A stretch of 62,986 bases of DNA from assembly GCA_031261485.1 (NCBI GenBank), contig JAISJO010000081.1, positions 1-62,986 on the forward strand, in the 5' to 3' direction. The notes under the pieces are model-generated. The model did not search any database. It had not been told where the DNA came from and saw only the letters and a program-made list of their open reading frames with translations. This DNA comes from Propionibacteriaceae bacterium. GTDB taxonomy: Bacteria; Actinomycetota; Actinomycetes; Propionibacteriales; Propionibacteriaceae. Below are positions 43,476 to 54,295 of the stretch, piece after piece. The translations under genes were made by a program, and so were the position numbers. Position 1 is the first letter of the stretch; each line of letters begins with the position of its first letter.

Positions 43476-44111
43476 ATGAGAAGGACCAGTCGGATCGGGG
43501 TTGCACTTGCTTCTTTGTTGTTGGGTTTGACTGGATGTGCGGCTAGCGAGCCCGAGGCACCAGTGACGGACGCGAGGATAGCGGGTAGCCTGCAGGAACT
43601 ATTCCAGATGGCCCTTGACACAACGAACCCGTCAGAGGTGGAGCGTGTGGCCATTGAGAATGCCATCGTGTCTGGTCGGATTGATCCGGTCGATTATGAG
43701 GCTGCTCATGTTCGTTATGTGCAGTGCATGGTTGAGCGGGGCTATGAGCCTTCGTTCCGCAAGACTGGTGAAGGGGTGTACATCGAGTTGCCTATCCGCG
43801 TTGGGGAAACTGAAGAGGCTCAAGAGGCTTATGATACAGCAGACATTGACTGTGCACAGGGCACTATGGTCATCAGCTCTCTATATCGCATTCAGCAATC
43901 GAACCCTGACCTCTTGTCTGATCAGCGACTGGTGGCAATCCGGTGCCTAAGAAAGGGAGGGTATGTGGATGTTGGCTACACAGTTGACGACTTTGATCGC
44001 GACAGGGGAGAACGTGGGGAGCCGACATTCCCATTTGACGTGTATGAGGACGGCCCGAATGACTGCCTCTACGGGGCAGGGTACGCTTATTTCACGATTG
44101 ACGAACCCTGA
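43476..44111 (+). CDS. Cysteine-containing lipoprotein, paralogue 3
   Basis: 211 residues. The signal peptide starts with the same 16 residues as paralogue 1, but the lipobox part (LGLTGC) matches paralogue 2. The mature part is like paralogue 2 in places (GYTVD, VRYVQCMV) and paralogue 1 in others, so it looks mosaic. The four mature cysteines are present. The function is unknown. It is followed by an oxidoreductase gene with its own ribosome site, probably unrelated. Confidence 0.8.
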   Translation: MRRTSRIGVALASLLLGLTGCAASEPEAPVTDARIAGSLQELFQMALDTTNPSEVERVAIENAIVSGRIDPVDYEAAHVRYVQCMVERGYEPSFRKTGEGVYIELPIRVGETEEAQEAYDTADIDCAQGTMVISSLYRIQQSNPDLLSDQRLVAIRCLRKGGYVDVGYTVDDFDRDRGERGEPTFPFDVYEDGPNDCLYGAGYAYFTIDEP

Positions 44112-44191
44112 CGCCAAGCTTCAAGAAATTCGTCACACGGGACACTAGACTGGCCTGACAGTCGCGCGAGCTTGCGACGGGAAGGAGCCCC

Positions 44192-45322
44192 ATGCTCACA
44201 ATTGCTCAGGTCGGATTGCGTGGATTCGGGAAGATACATCTGGAGCGAGCCGCGCGCTTGGCGGGATTAGGTCGTGTCGAGGTGGTGGCGGGCTGCCGAT
44301 CCAACGGCCAGGACTACGGGTTCCCGTGCTACGAGAACCTGGGCGAAGTGCTCTCCCATCGCGACAATATCGACATTGTTTCCATTGCGAGTCCTATCGA
44401 CACCCATTTCGCATTTGCCGCGCAGGCCCTCGACTATGGCGCTCACATCTTTCTCGAAAAGCCTCCTGTGGCCTCCCTCGACCAGTTCCGCGAGCTGGAG
44501 GGGCTTGCCGACAAGGCGGGCAAAGCGATCCAGGTCGGGTTCCAATCTTTGGGGTCGGCGGGCATCAACCGGATGAAAGAGCTTGCCGCGACCGAATTGG
44601 GTGAGATTCGTTCCGTTCAGGTCTGGGGGATGTGGCTGCGCACGACAGGGTACTTCCAGCGGGCGCGTTGGGCGGGCAAGCGGGTGCTCGATGGGGTGCG
44701 TGTGGCTGACGGGGTGTGTACAAATGCCCTTGCTCATTCCATCGCGACCGCCTGTCGAATTGTGGACTTGGTGAGTTTGGACCAGATCGAGTCCGTGGAA
44801 ACGGAACTGTATCATTGCTTCAATACTGAATCCGACGACACGAGTTGGGTGAAAATCCGTCGCAACGATGGTGTGCCTATCGATGTCTCGCTGACCCTGT
44901 GCGGGCCGACTCAGGAGAATCCGACGGTGACACTGGTCGGGTCCAGGGGTCGCGCACAGTTCCAGTACACCGAGGACGTCATCATCTGGTACAACGGAGG
45001 CGCCCCCCACGTCGAGCACGTCGCGCGAACGGATCTCCTGGAGAACCTCGTGGACCACATCGAGAAGCATGTGCCCCTGCTTGTGCCTCTGGCGCAAAAC
45101 GCTGGTTTCATGTCCGTCTTGGAAGCCACCCAATCTGCCCCTGAACCCATGCAAATCCAGCCAGAACACATGGTCTGGCACGGAGAAGGCGCTGACTCCC
45201 ACCCTGTTCCCGATGGTATAGAGACATTCCAACGGACCTGTCTGGGGGAGGGGATTGGCTACGCCGACGCCCAGGCCCCCTGGGGAGATTCCGCAGCCAA
45301 GGCAGTCTGGAAGCCACGGTAG
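44192..45322 (+). CDS. Gfo/Idh/MocA-family NAD(P)-dependent oxidoreductase
   Basis: 376 residues. The N-terminal Rossmann fold (TIAQVGLRGFGKIHLERAAR, a G-x-x-G-x-G variant) and the catalytic EKP motif (IFLEKPPVASLDQF) are followed by the GFO_IDH_MocA C-terminal domain (LGEIRSVQVWGMW). Members oxidise sugars or inositols; this substrate cannot be told. GGAAGGAG precedes the ATG. It lies 9 bases before folD. Confidence 0.85.
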   Translation: MLTIAQVGLRGFGKIHLERAARLAGLGRVEVVAGCRSNGQDYGFPCYENLGEVLSHRDNIDIVSIASPIDTHFAFAAQALDYGAHIFLEKPPVASLDQFRELEGLADKAGKAIQVGFQSLGSAGINRMKELAATELGEIRSVQVWGMWLRTTGYFQRARWAGKRVLDGVRVADGVCTNALAHSIATACRIVDLVSLDQIESVETELYHCFNTESDDTSWVKIRRNDGVPIDVSLTLCGPTQENPTVTLVGSRGRAQFQYTEDVIIWYNGGAPHVEHVARTDLLENLVDHIEKHVPLLVPLAQNAGFMSVLEATQSAPEPMQIQPEHMVWHGEGADSHPVPDGIETFQRTCLGEGIGYADAQAPWGDSAAKAVWKPR

Positions 45323-45331
45323 ACTTCCCCC

Positions 45332-46174
45332 ATGACTGCTGAGAAGATGGACGGCAAGGCCGTCGCCGCCACCATCAAAGCTGACCTAGCCACCCGAGTC
45401 GAGGCTCTTCAGGCACGAGGCGTCACACCTGGACTGGGAACTATCCTTGTGGGCGACGATCCGGGCAGCAAGCTCTACGTCGCTGGCAAGCACCGCGATT
45501 GCGCTGAAGTGGGTTTGGCCTCCATCCGTGTGGACCTGCCCGACACCGCCACCCAGGCACAGGTCGAGGAGGCCATCCATGTACTCAATGTCGACCCCGC
45601 ATGCACGGGATTCATTGTGCAACTGCCCTTGCCTCGCGGACTCGACGAGAACAAGGCGCTGGCCCTCATCGACCCCAACAAGGACGCTGACGGCCTGCAC
45701 CCCACCAACTTGGGCAAACTCGTCTTGGGCATGCCCGCGCCTCTGCCGTGCACCCCACGCGGAATCGTGGAATTGCTGCGCCGCTACAAGGTCACCTTGG
45801 ATGGCGCGCATGTCGTTGTCATCGGCCGGGGGGTGACGGTGGGGAGGCCCCTAGGATTGCTTCTCACCCGCCGCACGGAGAATGCGACGGTCACCCTCAC
45901 TCATACCGGCACCCGCGACCTGGCCGCACTCACTCGCCAAGCCGATATCGTCGTTGCCGCTGCCGGACGGGCGTCCATGCTGACTGCCGATATGGTCAAG
46001 CCGGGCGCAGTTGTTGTTGATGTGGGTGTGACAAGGGTAAACGACAAGCCTGCGGGCGATGTGGCCCCCGATGTGTGGGAGGTCGCCTCTCTTGTGACGC
46101 CCAATCCCGGAGGTGTCGGGCCGATGACAAGGGCCATGTTGCTGGCCAATGTGGTGGACCGGGCCGAGGCATGA
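45332..46174 (+). CDS. folD: Methylenetetrahydrofolate dehydrogenase / cyclohydrolase
   Basis: 280 residues. A bifunctional enzyme of one-carbon metabolism that interconverts 5,10-methylene-, methenyl- and 10-formyl-THF. Motifs: [20 protein letters not shown] (active-site Lys region), [20 protein letters not shown] and [15 protein letters not shown] (NADP side). The ATG at 45332 is used; a second one lies 15 bases on (MDGKAVA). Its stop overlaps the DUF3017 gene, an arrangement known in actinobacteria. Confidence 0.95.
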
Positions 46175-46488
46175 AGAAGATACGCGCGTGGTGGGACGGA
46201 CTCGTGGAGGAGCCGGGGCTGCTCGGGCGCGTGCGTCGGCAGTGGCCGTGGGTCTCCATGATGGTGGTCATGGCTGTGGGCCTTGCTCTCATCGGCTTCT
46301 GGTATTGGCGTCGAGGGGCAGCAATCATCGGTGTCGCGTTCGTCATGGGAGGGATTTTCAGGGCAGCCCTCAAGAACCCCGGAATCCTGATCATCCGCCG
46401 CAAGTGGATCGACTTGCTCCTGTATTTCGGCATCGGCGTCTCCATTCTCGTCATGGCCGCCATTGTCGCCCCGCCTCCGCCTGCGTGA
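46171..46488 (+). CDS. DUF3017-like small membrane protein
   Basis: 105 residues with about three transmembrane helices ([53 protein letters not shown]). DUF3017 proteins follow folD in many actinobacteria; the function is unknown. ATG 46171 overlaps the folD stop in ATGA. The longer open frame reaching into folD is not conserved. Confidence 0.85.
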
Positions 46489-46620
46489 GTAGGGGGAATC
46501 CCGGAATCGAGTCCCAAACCCTCGCCCTCCCAGCCCGCCCCGCCTGCGCGAGCGCCAATCCGCTGTGCCGCTGTGCCGCATCTGGGCGGGCGCCCAACCT
46601 CGCATAGTAAGATGGCATCC

Positions 46621-48063
46621 ATGGAATATCGCGTAGCAGACCTGTCCCTTGCCGATTTTGGTCGTAAAGAAGTCGCCCTTGCCGAACATGAGATGCCTGG
46701 ATTGATGGCCATGAGGCGCAGGTACAAGGACTCGAAACCCTTGGCGGGCGCACGCATTGCCGGTTCACTGCACATGACCATCCAAACGTCTGTCCTTATC
46801 GACACTCTTGTTGCCCTCGGCGCTGATGTGCGCTGGGCTTCGTGCAATATCTTCTCCACCCAGGACCACGCCGCCGCCACATCTGTTGTGGGCGCAGGCA
46901 CTCCTCAGGACCCCCAGGGCGTCCCCGTCTTCGCATGGAAAGGGGAAACGCTGGAGGAGTATTGGTGGTGTACTTCGCGCCTCTTCGACTTCTCCGCCAC
47001 GTCCCCTGACGCTCCCTATCCCACGATGATCCTGGACGATGGTGGCGACGCGACATTGTTTGTGCATAAGGGTCTGGAATACCAGAAGGCAGGGGCCGTG
47101 CCGCCCACCACTGCGGAGGATTCCGAAGAGTGGGGGGTCATCCTGGACCTGCTGCGCAAGGTCGCCGTGGGCGGACCGCAAGACCGCATCGACTTCGCGG
47201 CACTGGCGAAATCCATCCGGGGTGTGTCCGAGGAAACCACCACAGGCGTGCATCGACTTTACGAAATGGCCCGTGACAAGACCCTTCTCTTCCCCGCCAT
47301 CAATGTCAACGACTCGGTGACGAAGTCCAAGTTCGACAATAAGTATGGCTGCCGCCATTCGCTCATCGACGGAATCAACCGTGCGACGGACATCCTCATC
47401 GGAGGCAAGGTCGCGGTGGTGTGCGGCTATGGCGACGTGGGCAAGGGCTGTGCGGAATCCTTCCGTGGGCAGGGCGCGCGTGTCATCGTGACGGAGATCG
47501 ACCCGATTTGCGCTCTCCAGGCCGTCATGGACGGGTACGAGGTGCGTACCCTCGAAGAAGCGCTAGGCGTTGCTGATTTCATTATCACGGCAACGGGTGA
47601 CACTCGTGTCGTCACTGCTGACCAGATGTCACGCACGAAGGACCAGGCCGTCATCGGCAATATCGGCCACTTCGATGACGAAATCGACATGGCTGGTTTG
47701 TCTCGCTTGCCCGGAGTGACCAAGCAGAACATCAAGCCCCAAGTGGACCAATGGTTCTTCCCTGATGGTCACAGTATCATTGTCCTATCCGAAGGTCGTT
47801 TGCTGAACCTTGGCAACGCCACAGGCCATCCGTCTTTCGTGATGAGCAACTCCTTCACCAACCAGGTGTTCGCGCAGATCGAGTTGTACACCCACGACGT
47901 CCCCATCGGCGTCCATGTCCTGCCGAAGGCTCTGGATGAGGATGTCGCCCGCCTCCACCTGGAAGCCCTCGGAGTCAGCCTCACCAAGCTGACCGACGAG
48001 CAGGCGGCGTACCTCGGCATCAGCGTGGACGGGCCGTACAAACCGGACACATACCGTTACTGA
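46621..48063 (+). CDS. ahcY: Adenosylhomocysteinase
   Basis: 480 residues. Splits S-adenosylhomocysteine to homocysteine and adenosine; uses bound NAD. Motifs: [38 protein letters not shown] (active-site Lys and Asp) and [20 protein letters not shown] (NAD fold). C-terminal PDTYRY is the family end with the Lys/Tyr tail. No Shine-Dalgarno is present. The ATG at 46621 ([18 protein letters not shown]) lies 7 nt after a -10-like TAAGAT and fits a leaderless start; ATG 46612 is the alternative. It works with metY and folD in the methyl cycle. Confidence 0.95.
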
Positions 48064-48270
48064 CCCACTGTCTCAACTGGAGGCGTGGGTCGACGCACTG
48101 GGCCTGGAGCATCTAGTATGAGGCAAAGTGGAGCATGACAAGCGAGGCTGGACAAGGGCGGATATTCCGCAACACAGGTTCGTCTTCGTCATATGTTCGT
48201 AACATAGCCGTTTTCCACTGAAACGCAGAATAGCAAGAATGCGAGTGCGAATAACCGAGAGAGGGTGGTC

Positions 48271-49071
48271 ATGAGTGGCATCGAAACGTCCGACAAGGGC
48301 GCGTCTGACATCGAACCGTCCAACGAAGAACTGTCTGATGTCGTCGCAGAACTGCGTCACGTGGAGAAGTACTTTGGCTCGTTGCACGTCCTGAAGGACA
48401 TCAACTTGACCGTCGGTCGAGGTGAAGTGCTGGTGGTCATCGGCCCGTCCGGTTCGGGCAAGTCCACCTTGTGCCGCACCATCAACCGACTGGAGCCCAT
48501 CGATTCCGGGGAGATTCTGGTCGAAGGCAAGCTTCTTCCCCAAGAGGGCAAAGAGCTGGCCAGACTTCGCGCGGATGTCGGCATGGTTTTCCAGTCCTTC
48601 AATCTCTTCGCGCACAAGACCATCCTGGACAACGTGGCGCTCGGCCCGCGCAAGGCCAGGAAGATACCGAGGGCTGAGGCTGAGGCGGAAGCGCTGGAGT
48701 TGCTTGATCGCGTGGGCATCAAGGACCAGGCCAACAAGCTTCCGGCCCAACTCTCCGGTGGGCAGCAGCAGCGCGCCGCCATCGCCCGCGCCTTGGCTAT
48801 GCACCCCGCACTCATGCTTTTTGACGAGCCGACGTCGGCTCTCGACCCCGAAATGATTACCGAGGTCCTCGACGTCATGGTTTCCCTGGCTACCCAGGGA
48901 ATGACGATGGTGGTGGTGACCCATGAGATGGGGTTCGCTCGAAAGGCAGCCGACAGGGTCATCTTCATGTCCGACGGGGAGATATTGGAGGAGGCCACCC
49001 CGGAGGTCTTCTTCACGGCTCCCACCACGGATCGGGCCAAGGACTTCCTGGCCAAGATTCTGCAGCACTAA
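48271..49071 (+). CDS. gluA: Glutamate/glutamine-type ABC transporter ATP-binding protein
   Basis: 266 residues. Walker [11 protein letters not shown], signature [15 protein letters not shown], Walker [13 protein letters not shown] and H-loop VTHE. This is the polar amino acid (GlnQ/GluA) type. A 30-residue hydrophilic N-terminus is extra. GAGAGGG lies before ATG 48271; a GTG two codons upstream is possible. It starts the operon gluA-gluB-gluC-gluD. The spacer 48064-48270 holds one small stem (GCGGA-TAT-TCCGC) and no gene. Confidence 0.92.
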
Positions 49072-49090
49072 TCACCGATAGAAAGAAAAG

Positions 49091-49945
49091 ATGATGAAGA
49101 AGATTGCAATCGGCCTCATGGCCGCCCTCGCCTTGCCCATGATGCTCAGCGGCTGTGGCGATTCCAATTCTGGCGGCTCCGCAGCCCTCGAAGTGGTGGG
49201 GAAGCCGTTCACAACCGAGCTTTACGGAGTCGGTCTGCCCTTGGACACCCCCTTCTGCGAGCAAGTCAACCAGGCCATCAAAGACATGGTTGCCGACGGC
49301 ACATGGAAGGCCAAGCTGGATTCCGAGATGACTGGCGTGAAGTACACCCCGAATCCCGAGACCAACCCGCCGAAGGAATACGAAGACTGCTCTCCTGCAG
49401 GGACTGCCAAGCTGGTCACTGAGGGCAAGATCACCATTGGTATCAAGTTCGATCAGCCGCACCTCGGGTTCAAGGACGGCAACACGTACACCGGCTTCGA
49501 CGTCGACGTCGCCACCTATGTCGCTGGCAAGCTCGGCTTCACCCCCGACAAGATTGTATGGACTGAATCAGTGTCCGCTCAGCGCGAGACCCTGCTCCAG
49601 AACCATCAAGTGGACATGATTTTCGCCACCTACTCCATCACTGACTCCCGCAAGGAGAAGGTGGAGTTCGCTGGACCGTACTTCGTGGCTGGCCAAGACC
49701 TGCTCATCCGCGCTGGCGAGACGGACATCACTGGCCCCGAATCTCTCAACGGTGGCAAGAAGCTTTGCTCGGTTTCCGGTTCGACTCCTGCCCAGAAGAT
49801 CAAGGACTCGTACGCTGCCGATGTGCAGTTGGTCGAGGTCAAGACCTACTCCGAATGTGTGCAGGCTCTCATCGCCAAGCAGGTGGACGCTGTGACCACA
49901 GACGACATCATCCTGGCTGGTCTGGCGGCGGCTTCAGTCAAGTAA
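49091..49945 (+). CDS. gluB: Glutamate-type ABC substrate-binding lipoprotein, apparently circularly permuted
   Basis: 284 residues with lipobox LSGC (Cys 22). Residues 33-82 (EVVGKPFTTELYGVGLPLDT and the following helix to DGTWKAKLDSEMTG) match the C-terminal end of normal GluB/GlnH proteins. Residues 83-106 are a Pro/Asn-rich linker. Residues 107-284 (KLVTEGKITIGIKFDQPHLG, FDVDVATYV, SVSAQRETLLQNHQVDMIFA, CSVSGSTPAQK, AVTTDDIILAGLAAASVK) match the normal N-terminal start and stop where the C-terminal segment would begin. Joining end to start restores the usual order. No second C-terminal segment lies downstream. The importer context (ATPase before, two permeases after) supports a working protein. 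Confidence 0.85.
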   Translation: MMKKIAIGLMAALALPMMLSGCGDSNSGGSAALEVVGKPFTTELYGVGLPLDTPFCEQVNQAIKDMVADGTWKAKLDSEMTGVKYTPNPETNPPKEYEDCSPAGTAKLVTEGKITIGIKFDQPHLGFKDGNTYTGFDVDVATYVAGKLGFTPDKIVWTESVSAQRETLLQNHQVDMIFATYSITDSRKEKVEFAGPYFVAGQDLLIRAGETDITGPESLNGGKKLCSVSGSTPAQKIKDSYAADVQLVEVKTYSECVQALIAKQVDAVTTDDIILAGLAAASVK

Positions 49946-49972
49946 GACAGTAAGCCATATCGTTATTCGCGC

Positions 49973-50002
49973 GGTCTGGCCGGGGTATGTCCCGGCCAGA
50001 CC
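49973..50002 (+). terminator. Intercistronic hairpin between gluB and gluC
   Basis: A perfect 12-bp stem (49973-49984 with 49991-50002), loop GTATGT, no U tract. Such hairpins after binding-protein genes protect upstream mRNA and reduce downstream transcription, which gives an excess of binding protein over permease. Confidence 0.7.
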
Positions 50003-50033
50003 CACGACCTAGAAGAAGAGAGGAGGAGAGGTT

Positions 50034-50720
50034 GTGAACCTGTTTTCGCGATACATAGAGTTCATTGCGGACTACAACATTTTTCATGCTTTCTGGGTCA
50101 ATATCACCCTGACTCTCTTCTCCGGCGCTCTGGCTCTCGTCCTCGGCACTATCGCAGTAGTCATGCGCATCTCGCCCATTGCTAGTTTGCGAGGCGCCTC
50201 CACGTTCTACGTCAATGTTTTCCGCGACATCCCACTGACGGTCGTCATGGTGGTCATGTTCTCCGTGGTGTGGGTCCAATTGCAGGTGTCCTTCTCGTCC
50301 GACATGAGCAGGGACTTTTACATTCTGGCCATCATCGGCCTGGGGATGTACCACTCGTCCTTTATCGCGGAATCGCTGCGCTCGGGCATCAACACGGTGC
50401 CCTTGGGGCAAGCAGAAGCCGCTCGCTCCATCGGGCTGACCTTCATGCAGTCAGCGCGCATCGTCATCTTGCCTCAGGCCTTCCGTGGCTCTATCGCCCC
50501 CATCGGGAACACCATCATCGCCCTCATCAAGAACACGACAGTTGCTTCGGTGGCTGCTGTGGCCAATGAAACCTCGGGCGTCATGGCAGCGGCCCTTGAG
50601 TTTGGCCCGCAGTTCAATTTCCTCATCTTCTTCACCTTCGCTCTCGGGTATGTCATCATCGTCATCCCCGTCGGACTGCTCACGACATGGTTGTCGCGCA
50701 CATTGGCGGTGATGAGATGA
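50034..50720 (+). CDS. gluC: Glutamate-type ABC transporter permease 1
   Basis: 228 residues. About five transmembrane helices with the BPD permease motif (EAARSIGLTFMQSARIVILP). The first helix is FWVNITLTLFSGALALVLG. The GTG start follows AGGAGGAGAGG. Its stop overlaps the gluD start (ATGA), so the two permeases are translated together. It forms the heterodimeric channel with GluD. Confidence 0.92.
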   Translation: MNLFSRYIEFIADYNIFHAFWVNITLTLFSGALALVLGTIAVVMRISPIASLRGASTFYVNVFRDIPLTVVMVVMFSVVWVQLQVSFSSDMSRDFYILAIIGLGMYHSSFIAESLRSGINTVPLGQAEAARSIGLTFMQSARIVILPQAFRGSIAPIGNTIIALIKNTTVASVAAVANETSGVMAAALEFGPQFNFLIFFTFALGYVIIVIPVGLLTTWLSRTLAVMR

Positions 50721-51688
50721 GTCGGCGCACCAAAGTGGTGGAACACTCCGTTTTCTTCGACGCTCCAGGTCCTAAGACCAAGCGTCTCATCTTCTTCGCC
50801 AATATCGTGGGCTCGGGCATCATCGCGGCCATCCTCTTGGTCGTTGTCCTGAAACTTCAGGAGATGGGCCAATTGACGTGGTCCATGTGGTCGGTCACGG
50901 TGCAGCCGAGGTCGTGGTTGTACTACTTCCTTCCCGGTTTGGGCGCCACTCTCCTGGCCGCTCTGGTGTCCATCGTGGGCGCATTCATTTTCGGATTGAT
51001 ATTCGGCGTGGCCCGTTTGGCCAATAACCGCCCCATTCGGTGGCTCGCCTCCATCGTCGTGGAGTTCTGTCGCGCGGTGCCCGTGCTGCTCATGATGATT
51101 TTCATGTGGACCTTGTTCGGCGGCGCGGGTTGGTCGAACCCGTCCTTCTGGGCCGTGGTCGTCGCGCTCATTCTTTACAACGGCTCGGTGTGCGCCGAAT
51201 TGGTGCGCTCGGGTGTGCTCAACCTGCCCACCGGCCAACATGAGGCCGCCGCTGCCATTGGGCTGACGCGCGGCCAGGCATTGGCCAACATACTCGTGCC
51301 TCAAGCTCTGCTGTCCATGTTGCCCGCTCTCATCGCCCAATTGGTCGTTGCCCTCAAGGACTCGGCTCTGGGCTCGGCCATCGCATACTCAGAGCTCTTG
51401 CGCCAGGCGACCTTGCTCGGGACCCCCTATCGGACCTTGCAGACTATTTTCGTTGCGTCCTTGATTTTCATCGCCATCAACTATGGCTTGGGTAAAATGG
51501 GCGAGTGGCTGGCCTCGAAGATGAAGGGTCGCGGTCTGCAACTGGACGAGACCATGTCCGAGGAAATCCCCATGAACGTCTCCGCACTAGGCAAGCGCGA
51601 GATGCTGGAGGACCCCGACGCCGAAGGCCCGTACGACGAATCCGAGCGTCTGCGCCAGGAAATGACAGGCGTGCGTCGCCACCTGTAG
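50717..51688 (+). CDS. gluD: Glutamate-type ABC transporter permease 2
   Basis: 323 residues. Permease motif EAAAAIGLTRGQALANILVP. The longer N-terminus (about 70 residues) and the charged C-terminal tail (DPDAEGPYDESERLRQEMTG) match actinobacterial GluD. ATG 50717 overlaps the gluC stop. It ends the operon; 71 bases lie between it and eno. Confidence 0.92.
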   Translation: MSRRTKVVEHSVFFDAPGPKTKRLIFFANIVGSGIIAAILLVVVLKLQEMGQLTWSMWSVTVQPRSWLYYFLPGLGATLLAALVSIVGAFIFGLIFGVARLANNRPIRWLASIVVEFCRAVPVLLMMIFMWTLFGGAGWSNPSFWAVVVALILYNGSVCAELVRSGVLNLPTGQHEAAAAIGLTRGQALANILVPQALLSMLPALIAQLVVALKDSALGSAIAYSELLRQATLLGTPYRTLQTIFVASLIFIAINYGLGKMGEWLASKMKGRGLQLDETMSEEIPMNVSALGKREMLEDPDAEGPYDESERLRQEMTGVRRHL

Positions 51689-51723
51689 GTCCTCACGGCC
51701 ACCTCGCAGACACGATAAGCTAG

Positions 51724-53042
<1,319 letters not shown>

Positions 53043-53043
<1 letters not shown>

Positions 53044-53672
53044 TGCCCGTACAGCCTCCGCGTGCCACACCGGGTCGGGGTCATTCCCGTCCCGGTGGCG
53101 GACGCGAGCCGAGACCAGTCAATAGGCTGACTGCGGCGGGGGAGGACCCGGAGGCTGACAAGGGAGATCGGGCCAAGGCCCATGCGGACGCCCGGAGTCG
53201 AGCGGTGTCTGCGCTGGCCTTGGGCTTCACCCAGCGCCTCATCGTCATTGGCGCGGTGGTGGCGGTCTTGGCTGTGTCTTTCGTTTCTTCCCTGAGCGTG
53301 TACCTGCGTCAGCAGCATGACATCGCCGAGACTAAGCACGAAATCGCCATGAGCCAGGACGCCGTGAGCGATCTTCAGGACCGCATCGCGCGCTGGCAAG
53401 ACCCCGCCTATGTCGAGGCTCAGGCCCGCGACCGTCTGGGATGGGTCATGCCCGGGGAGATTGGGTATCGTGTCGTCGATGGGCAGGGCAATGTCATCGG
53501 GGGAGTGGTGTCGGCCATCAACCCCAAGGACGACGCGGCTACACGTGTGTGGTACGAGGCATTGTGGGGGTCCCTCCAAGCGGCTGATCGCCCCGAGCCC
53601 ATCCCTGCCGAAACCGCCAGTCCTTCCGGGCCGACCACGGTTGGGCCCGACTCCACCGAACCTCCCCGATGA
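53043..53672 (+). CDS. ftsB: FtsB/DivIC-type septum formation initiator
   Basis: 209 residues. An N-terminal cytoplasmic basic region is followed by one transmembrane helix (LIVIGAVVAVLAVSFVSSL), a coiled coil (ETKHEIAMSQDAVSDLQDRI) and the family motif WQDPAYVEAQARDRLGWVMP. The C-terminal tail is Pro/Ser-rich. It joins FtsL and FtsQ in the divisome. GTG start overlaps the eno stop. It overlaps the DUF501 gene by 4 bases. Confidence 0.9.
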
Positions 53673-54295
53673 GCGCGGATGCGCCTGAGATTCGGCTCAA
53701 TGAAGAGCTTGACGCCCTCACTCCACTAGACCATGCCATTGTTCGTGCTCAACTGCATCGCAACCCCCAGGGAGCGCAGAGTATCGCGTGGCGTTGTCCG
53801 TGCGGCAAGCCAGGGGTAGTGCAAACAGCCCCACGCCTGCCCGACGGGACGCCCTTCCCCACGACGTATTACTTGACATGCCCGAACGCCACCAAAGCCG
53901 TTTCCACCCTCGAAGGCTCGGGGATGATGTCCGATATGCAGGACAGATTGGGCCATGATGCGGACCTGGCGAGGCGGTACGAAACGGCCCATGAGGCGTA
54001 CCTGCGGGATCGGGACGAACTGGGCGAGCGCTTGGGTGTGGACGTTCCCGAAATAGCTGGCCGTTCTGCTGGGGGGATGCCGACGAGGGTCAAGTGCCTT
54101 CACGCGCTTCTCGCACACGCCCTCGCTGCCGGTCCTGGGGTCAATACTTTGGGGGATGAGGTTTTGGCCGCGCTGGGTGAGTTTTGGGTCCGGCCATGTC
54201 TGGAGGGCTTTGCGTTCGATTCTGGCGAGGGGCAGGGTGTCTCGGGGCCCGAGTCGGCAAACGAGTCAGGCGGGCGCGTCGGGGAGTCGGTATGA
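53669..54295 (+). CDS. DUF501-family protein
   Basis: 208 residues. Conserved parts: CPCGKPGVVQTAPRLPDGTP, FPTTYYLTCPNATKAVSTLE and VKCLHALLAHALA-x-GPGVN. Several Cys and His (CPCG, TCPN, KCLHALLAH) could bind a metal. The function is unknown; it always lies between ftsB and ppx in actinobacteria. The last 20 residues are low complexity. It overlaps ftsB and ppx by ATGA. Confidence 0.88.
   Translation: MSADAPEIRLNEELDALTPLDHAIVRAQLHRNPQGAQSIAWRCPCGKPGVVQTAPRLPDGTPFPTTYYLTCPNATKAVSTLEGSGMMSDMQDRLGHDADLARRYETAHEAYLRDRDELGERLGVDVPEIAGRSAGGMPTRVKCLHALLAHALAAGPGVNTLGDEVLAALGEFWVRPCLEGFAFDSGEGQGVSGPESANESGGRVGESV

Follow-up and report, generated by a model that had tools for sequence, protein, structure and literature searches.

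The gene at positions 49091-49945 (+) of the window, the whole stretch of 62,986 nucleotides that was analysed, raises the question of whether a binding protein of an amino-acid importer has been naturally circularly permuted or whether its block order has some other cause, such as fusion of unrelated pieces, a changed job or decay. The answer favoured here, with a probability of about 0.9, is that its product, a GluB-type lipoprotein (family 3, type II / cluster F) serving a GluABCD-type amino-acid importer, has undergone a natural circular permutation.

Anatomy and block order of the permuted gene

The orf is intact and encodes a permuted GluB-type solute-binding lipoprotein of 284 amino acids within an intact gluA-gluB-gluC-gluD operon. 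The features of the locus are as follows.

48265..49071, + strand: gluA-type ABC transporter ATPase (Pfam ABC_tran; closest NCBIfam model GlnQ, below cut-off)
49091..49156, + strand: signal peptide of the permuted gluB, ending in its lipobox (LSGC, Cys22) (sequence; lipobox Cys in 12 of 12 permuted homologues)
49157..49183, + strand: low-complexity tether linking the lipidated Cys with the folded body (clade comparison)
49184..49390, + strand: C-segment, residues 32-100, the C-terminal part of standard GluB moved to the front (segment searches, PDB match, element order)
49391..49426, + strand: join of the old C-terminus to the old N-terminus, residues 101-112, SPAGTAKLVTEG (homologue comparison)
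49427..49942, + strand: N-segment, residues 113-284, the N-terminal three quarters of standard mature GluB, now C-terminal (segment searches, PDB and Pfam matches, structure alignment)
49973..50002, + strand: strong GC-rich hairpin lacking a T-run, in the gap from the permuted gluB to gluC (sequence)
50034..50720, + strand: gluC-type permease subunit (Pfam BPD_transp_1; NCBIfam HEQRo_perm_3TM above cut-off)
50687..51688, + strand: gluD-type permease subunit (Pfam BPD_transp_1; NCBIfam HEQRo_perm_3TM above cut-off)

When the two segments (residues 32-104 as 'C' and 112-284 as 'N') were used as separate queries, standard relatives in which both were found always had N then C in a single orf, whereas in the window protein and a set of its relatives the C-segment precedes the N-segment. 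The C-segment matched standard actinobacterial GluB with E values of 1e-5 to 1e-19 at 32-52% identity; in every case this match lay beyond that of the N-segment, within one orf. A PDB search gave crossed matches of the window protein to the solved glutamate-binding protein 5eyf (residues 112-280 to 15-183 and 33-73 to 188-229), that of the short segment to this distant structure being weak (i-E 0.038). Rotation of the sequence in silico merged them into a single match (rotated 3-215 to chain 17-229) scoring 128.9 bits, versus 98.6 + 16.7 bits unrotated. The Pfam SBP_bac_3 profile (curated cut-off 26.4 bits) scored 82.1 bits unrotated and 84.7 bits rotated, its coverage extending from 1-98 to 1-124 of 132 positions upon rotation. 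The best NCBIfam profiles are covered by the permuted protein over only their first three quarters but by a standard sister protein (L045) over nearly their full length; profile annotation silently labels such permuted genes as truncated family members. The window protein does not have the standard segment order of the SBP_bac_3 family: its C-segment lies ahead of its N-segment, and therefore it is classed as a permuted derivative rather than as a standard member. No spare C-segment was found just downstream of the gene or elsewhere in the genome. Both segments belong to one ancestral gene lineage and lie in rotated order in one frame, as in a natural circular permutation.

The C-segment accounts for the C-terminal quarter of a standard GluB-type protein. 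It is preceded by a tether of 10 residues in the window protein (10-22 across the permuted clade) and followed by a join whose length, 12 residues, is identical in every one of the 12 permuted homologues; in most of these the join has the pattern xxxGxAxLVTxG. The join resembles a stretch, AGSTMxxLxxAGK, located ahead of the first strand in other GluB; because these proteins carry that stretch at the mature N-terminus, the old N-terminal stretch is probably contained within the join. The permuted protein ends with AAASVK (stop codon 49943-49945) in the loop that follows the last helix of lobe 2, at the point where the C-terminal segment of a standard protein would start, and the breakpoints are conserved across the permuted homologues.

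The first-pass annotation of this locus had described a rotated block order in an intact frame with a correctly placed lipobox and no spare C-terminal segment downstream, all of which is borne out by the separate alignment of the two segments that it proposed, by the crossed 5eyf matches that merge on rotation, by the invariance of Cys22 and by the search for spare copies. Its linker (about residues 83-106) has to be shortened to residues 101-112, because NPPKEYEDC of the window protein corresponds to the tail NPPKPDAC of standard proteins, so that the moved segment reaches approximately Cys100. It had also taken Cys56 and Cys100 for an extra pair that might staple the moved segment. Both cysteines are present in 12 of 12 permuted proteins, but the idea of an extra staple was rejected because standard proteins keep or lose the two together, and the pair is ancestral, inherited from standard GluB.

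Among 64 standard sequences (within L012-L092), the equivalents of these cysteines in the C-terminal segment are both present in 41, both absent from 22, and represented by the first only in one. The almost invariable joint presence or absence suggests an ancestral disulfide that would tie down the C-terminal tail of standard actinobacterial GluB.

Distribution, origin and retention of the rotated order

The permuted gene occurs in 12 of the 198 genomes of the family sample (7 of 19 in the genus of the window and 5 in another genus, g8). The 12 genomes are all distinct, represent two genera of Propionibacteriaceae and come from two collections, and in each the permuted gene is a single intact orf; the same order is thus present in related genomes, where the first-pass annotation had proposed to look for it. 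Eleven permuted loci have named copies, which are Propionibacteriaceae MAGs, from termite gut where a source is given; the sample codes Lab288, Emb289 and Nc150 denote Labiotermes labralis, Embiratermes neotenicus and Nasutitermes corniger (PMC7024585). The search for the permuted order covered proteins of the GluB subfamily in the family, class and phylum samples; among the matches listed, the order was not seen in the remaining family genomes, in 395 genomes of the class or in 396 of the phylum. Two long single matches that looked permuted by query range, in genomes G072 (L022) and G102 (L103), proved to be of standard order when their sequences were read.

In a tree of rotated proteins, the permuted set forms a single clade (SH-aLRT 99). 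Trees of the separate segments recover the permuted clade (95/90 for the N-segment, 100/99 for the C-segment) within a larger clade (99/98 and 96/96, respectively) that contains the same five standard proteins (L045, L065, L073, L074 and L024). The agreement of the segment trees derives both segments from one parent lineage, and the sequences thus show one origin of the permuted order from the standard gluB of that lineage.

The front segment might instead have been captured from a different SBP gene and fused ahead of a truncated GluB, a comparable origin having been left open for the permuted Treponema pallidum protein TpMglB-2 (PMC4990184). The segments do differ in rate, with identities to the window protein within the clade of 60-78% for the C-segment and 73-90% for the N-segment. 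However, such a chimera is very improbable, given that the same five standard proteins accompany the permuted set in both segment trees and that the C-segment retains the family's C-terminal tail and Cys pair. Recombination between two close GluB paralogues, which would be equivalent to a tandem copy, may nevertheless have taken place.

Because the separate trees agree, tandem duplication and trimming is favoured over capture of a foreign piece. An in-frame tandem duplication of gluB would have been followed by two deletions, one removing the N-segment of the first copy after the signal peptide and one removing the C-segment of the second copy; no duplication intermediate was found among the genomes searched. 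The five nearest standard GluB span several families, and most Propionibacteriaceae carry a GluB of a different clade, which hints that the operon may have been transferred horizontally.

The permuted gene of the window adjoins the genes of an ATPase and two polar-amino-acid-type permeases, as does the SBP gene of a GluABCD-type importer, and the related permuted loci keep the order gluA-gluB-gluC-gluD (in one, the contig ends before gluD). Each permuted genome has one GluB match at E <= 1e-30, and no second close gluB was found in these genomes at that threshold. Members of the genus without the permuted gene have no close gluC either; taken together, these two observations suggest that the operon is gained and lost as a unit. 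No substrate-level NCBIfam model reached its cut-off with the permuted protein; by analogy with its relatives, the ligand is presumably glutamate or something close to it. The permuted GluB would bind this ligand between its lobes and close, the closed form would dock on GluC/GluD, and the substrate would be released to these permeases upon ATP hydrolysis by GluA.

A protein whose lipid anchor is probably on the opposite lobe could conceivably have changed its job to that of a sensor or binder of another substrate, no longer feeding GluC/GluD. This is very improbable in light of the constant position of the permuted gene between gluA and gluC, the lack of any other close gluB in the permuted genomes, the 63-76% identity of the N-segment to standard GluB of the nearest lineage, and the lack of a close gluC in those genomes of the genus that lack the permuted gene.

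The pairwise dN/dS of the mature permuted protein is 0.03-0.16 in nine pairs, and that of either segment is at most 0.25, showing at the sequence level that the permuted gene is under purifying selection as a protein in both segments. Decay or misassembly, in the form of a shortened gluB that happens to follow an unrelated piece or of an error in assembly, might be suspected in draft assemblies of many contigs, but this reading is refuted by independent genomes and has a negligible probability, as the order, breakpoints and operon are common to twelve distinct genomes from several samples and dN/dS is well below 1 for both segments. The first-pass description of a natural, working permutation therefore stands with respect to the order, the twelve genomes and the selection, while 'working' is a probable reading, drawn from conservation and selection.

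Two further observations concern the operon. A hairpin of differing sequence is found at the gluB-gluC gap in most of the related loci L005-L011 and L040-L043; a possible function of the hairpin is to adjust how much binding protein is made relative to permease. No Rfam family was detected within 44000-54000 of the window. In locus L006 of a permuted genome (G012, contig C231 28264-29010), the gluC match is broken into two parts that are separated by 27 bases but share a single open frame, and this gluC may carry a small insertion.

Predicted fold and anchor position

AlphaFold2, given an alignment of the 12 permuted proteins together with unaltered segments of standard proteins (standard-order fragments being kept on separate rows), returned a confident model (pLDDT 91.5, pTM 0.84); a structure prediction had been among the checks proposed in the first-pass annotation. 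All blocks from residue 31 onward are at 85 or above, and the C-segment blocks at 92-98. The predicted elements E33-36, E42-49, H56-68 and H71-79 correspond to the last four of a standard sister protein (E214-216, E222-230, H235-250 and H253-262). In order-bound structural alignment with 5eyf, only residues 104-284 of the permuted model fit (Z 17.4, 178 aa, 2.0 A), versus nearly the whole body of the standard sister L045 (Z 29.8, 230 aa, 1.9 A), as expected if permutation has left the fold unchanged; from the confidence values and the element order, the C-segment is predicted to take its standard place in three dimensions. Among the top 50 Foldseek matches, none of the solved structures fits the permuted model well over its whole length (best query TM 0.56).

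Residues 113-284 of the model align to chain residues 4-171 of Escherichia coli GlnH (1wdn). Relative to the known hinge positions of GlnH, which were used to place the cut with respect to the crossover strands, the cut appears to be in a loop of lobe 2, shortly ahead of the second crossover strand, and not at the hinge strand itself as had first been proposed. Since the old termini are near each other on lobe 1 and the new ones are in a loop at the surface of lobe 2, the permuted chain is predicted to fold as the usual two-lobed 'Venus flytrap'. The position of the cut in lobe 2 before the second crossover strand implies that the lobe crossovers would stay at two, that lobe 1 would become one continuous stretch while lobe 2 would be built from the two chain ends (opposite to the arrangement in the standard protein), and that the N-terminal lipid anchor would shift from lobe 1 to lobe 2.

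Significance and comparison with known systems

The permuted GluB is likely to be the first case of natural circular permutation among type II amino-acid-binding proteins, arisen by a single event in one gut lineage of Propionibacteriaceae, with the anchor moved from lobe 1 to lobe 2, lobe 1 made continuous, folding and the holding of the protein at the importer changed, and transport kept. A search of open-access literature found no description of natural permutation among type II amino-acid-binding proteins; the only naturally permuted binding protein of such an importer to surface there was TpMglB-2.

Natural circular permutations are often too old for the moved part to align well. In the permuted GluB, both segments align to the nearest standard relatives with 44-76% identity, the breakpoints can be placed exactly and the parent lineage has been identified, and for these reasons it can serve as a test case for the rise and retention of a permutation, for the role of the anchored lobe in ABC importers and for the folding order of two-lobed binding proteins. 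The type II binding-protein fold is in wide use for glutamate sensors, and the new termini mark a naturally tolerated opening in the two-lobed fold.

Compared with standard GluB/GlnH proteins of family 3 (SBP_bac_3; 5eyf, Mycobacterium tuberculosis GlnH 6h1u), both segments of the permuted protein are homologous over their full length, and it shares with them the lipobox, the operon with an ATPase and two permeases, and the Cys pair of the C-terminal segment that is common to many actinobacterial GluB; it differs in its rotated order, its joined old termini and its new termini in a loop of lobe 2. The standard sisters L045 (Promicromonosporaceae MAG Nt197P3bin111) and L065 (genome G580) have the same operon order and an N-segment that is 73-76% identical, and both segment trees place them with the permuted clade, but they have the N-segment followed by the C-segment.

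The closest precedent is TpMglB-2 (Tp0684) of T. pallidum, a naturally permuted, membrane-tethered binding protein of an ABC importer ('Type Ic / Cluster Bc') that keeps the two-lobed fold, binds glucose and changes conformation (PMC4990184). The permuted GluB does not belong to that class, since both of its segments are homologous to family 3 (type II). TpMglB-2 has a type I sugar-binding fold in which N-terminal strands have moved to the C-terminus and a fourth lobe crossover has been added (PMC4990184), whereas the permuted GluB is predicted to have a type II amino-acid-binding fold in which the C-terminal segment has moved to the front and is expected to have added no crossover. The moved part of TpMglB-2 is poorly alignable, at 13% (PMC4990184), in contrast to that of the permuted GluB, which retains 44-52% identity with the five standard GluB nearest to it.
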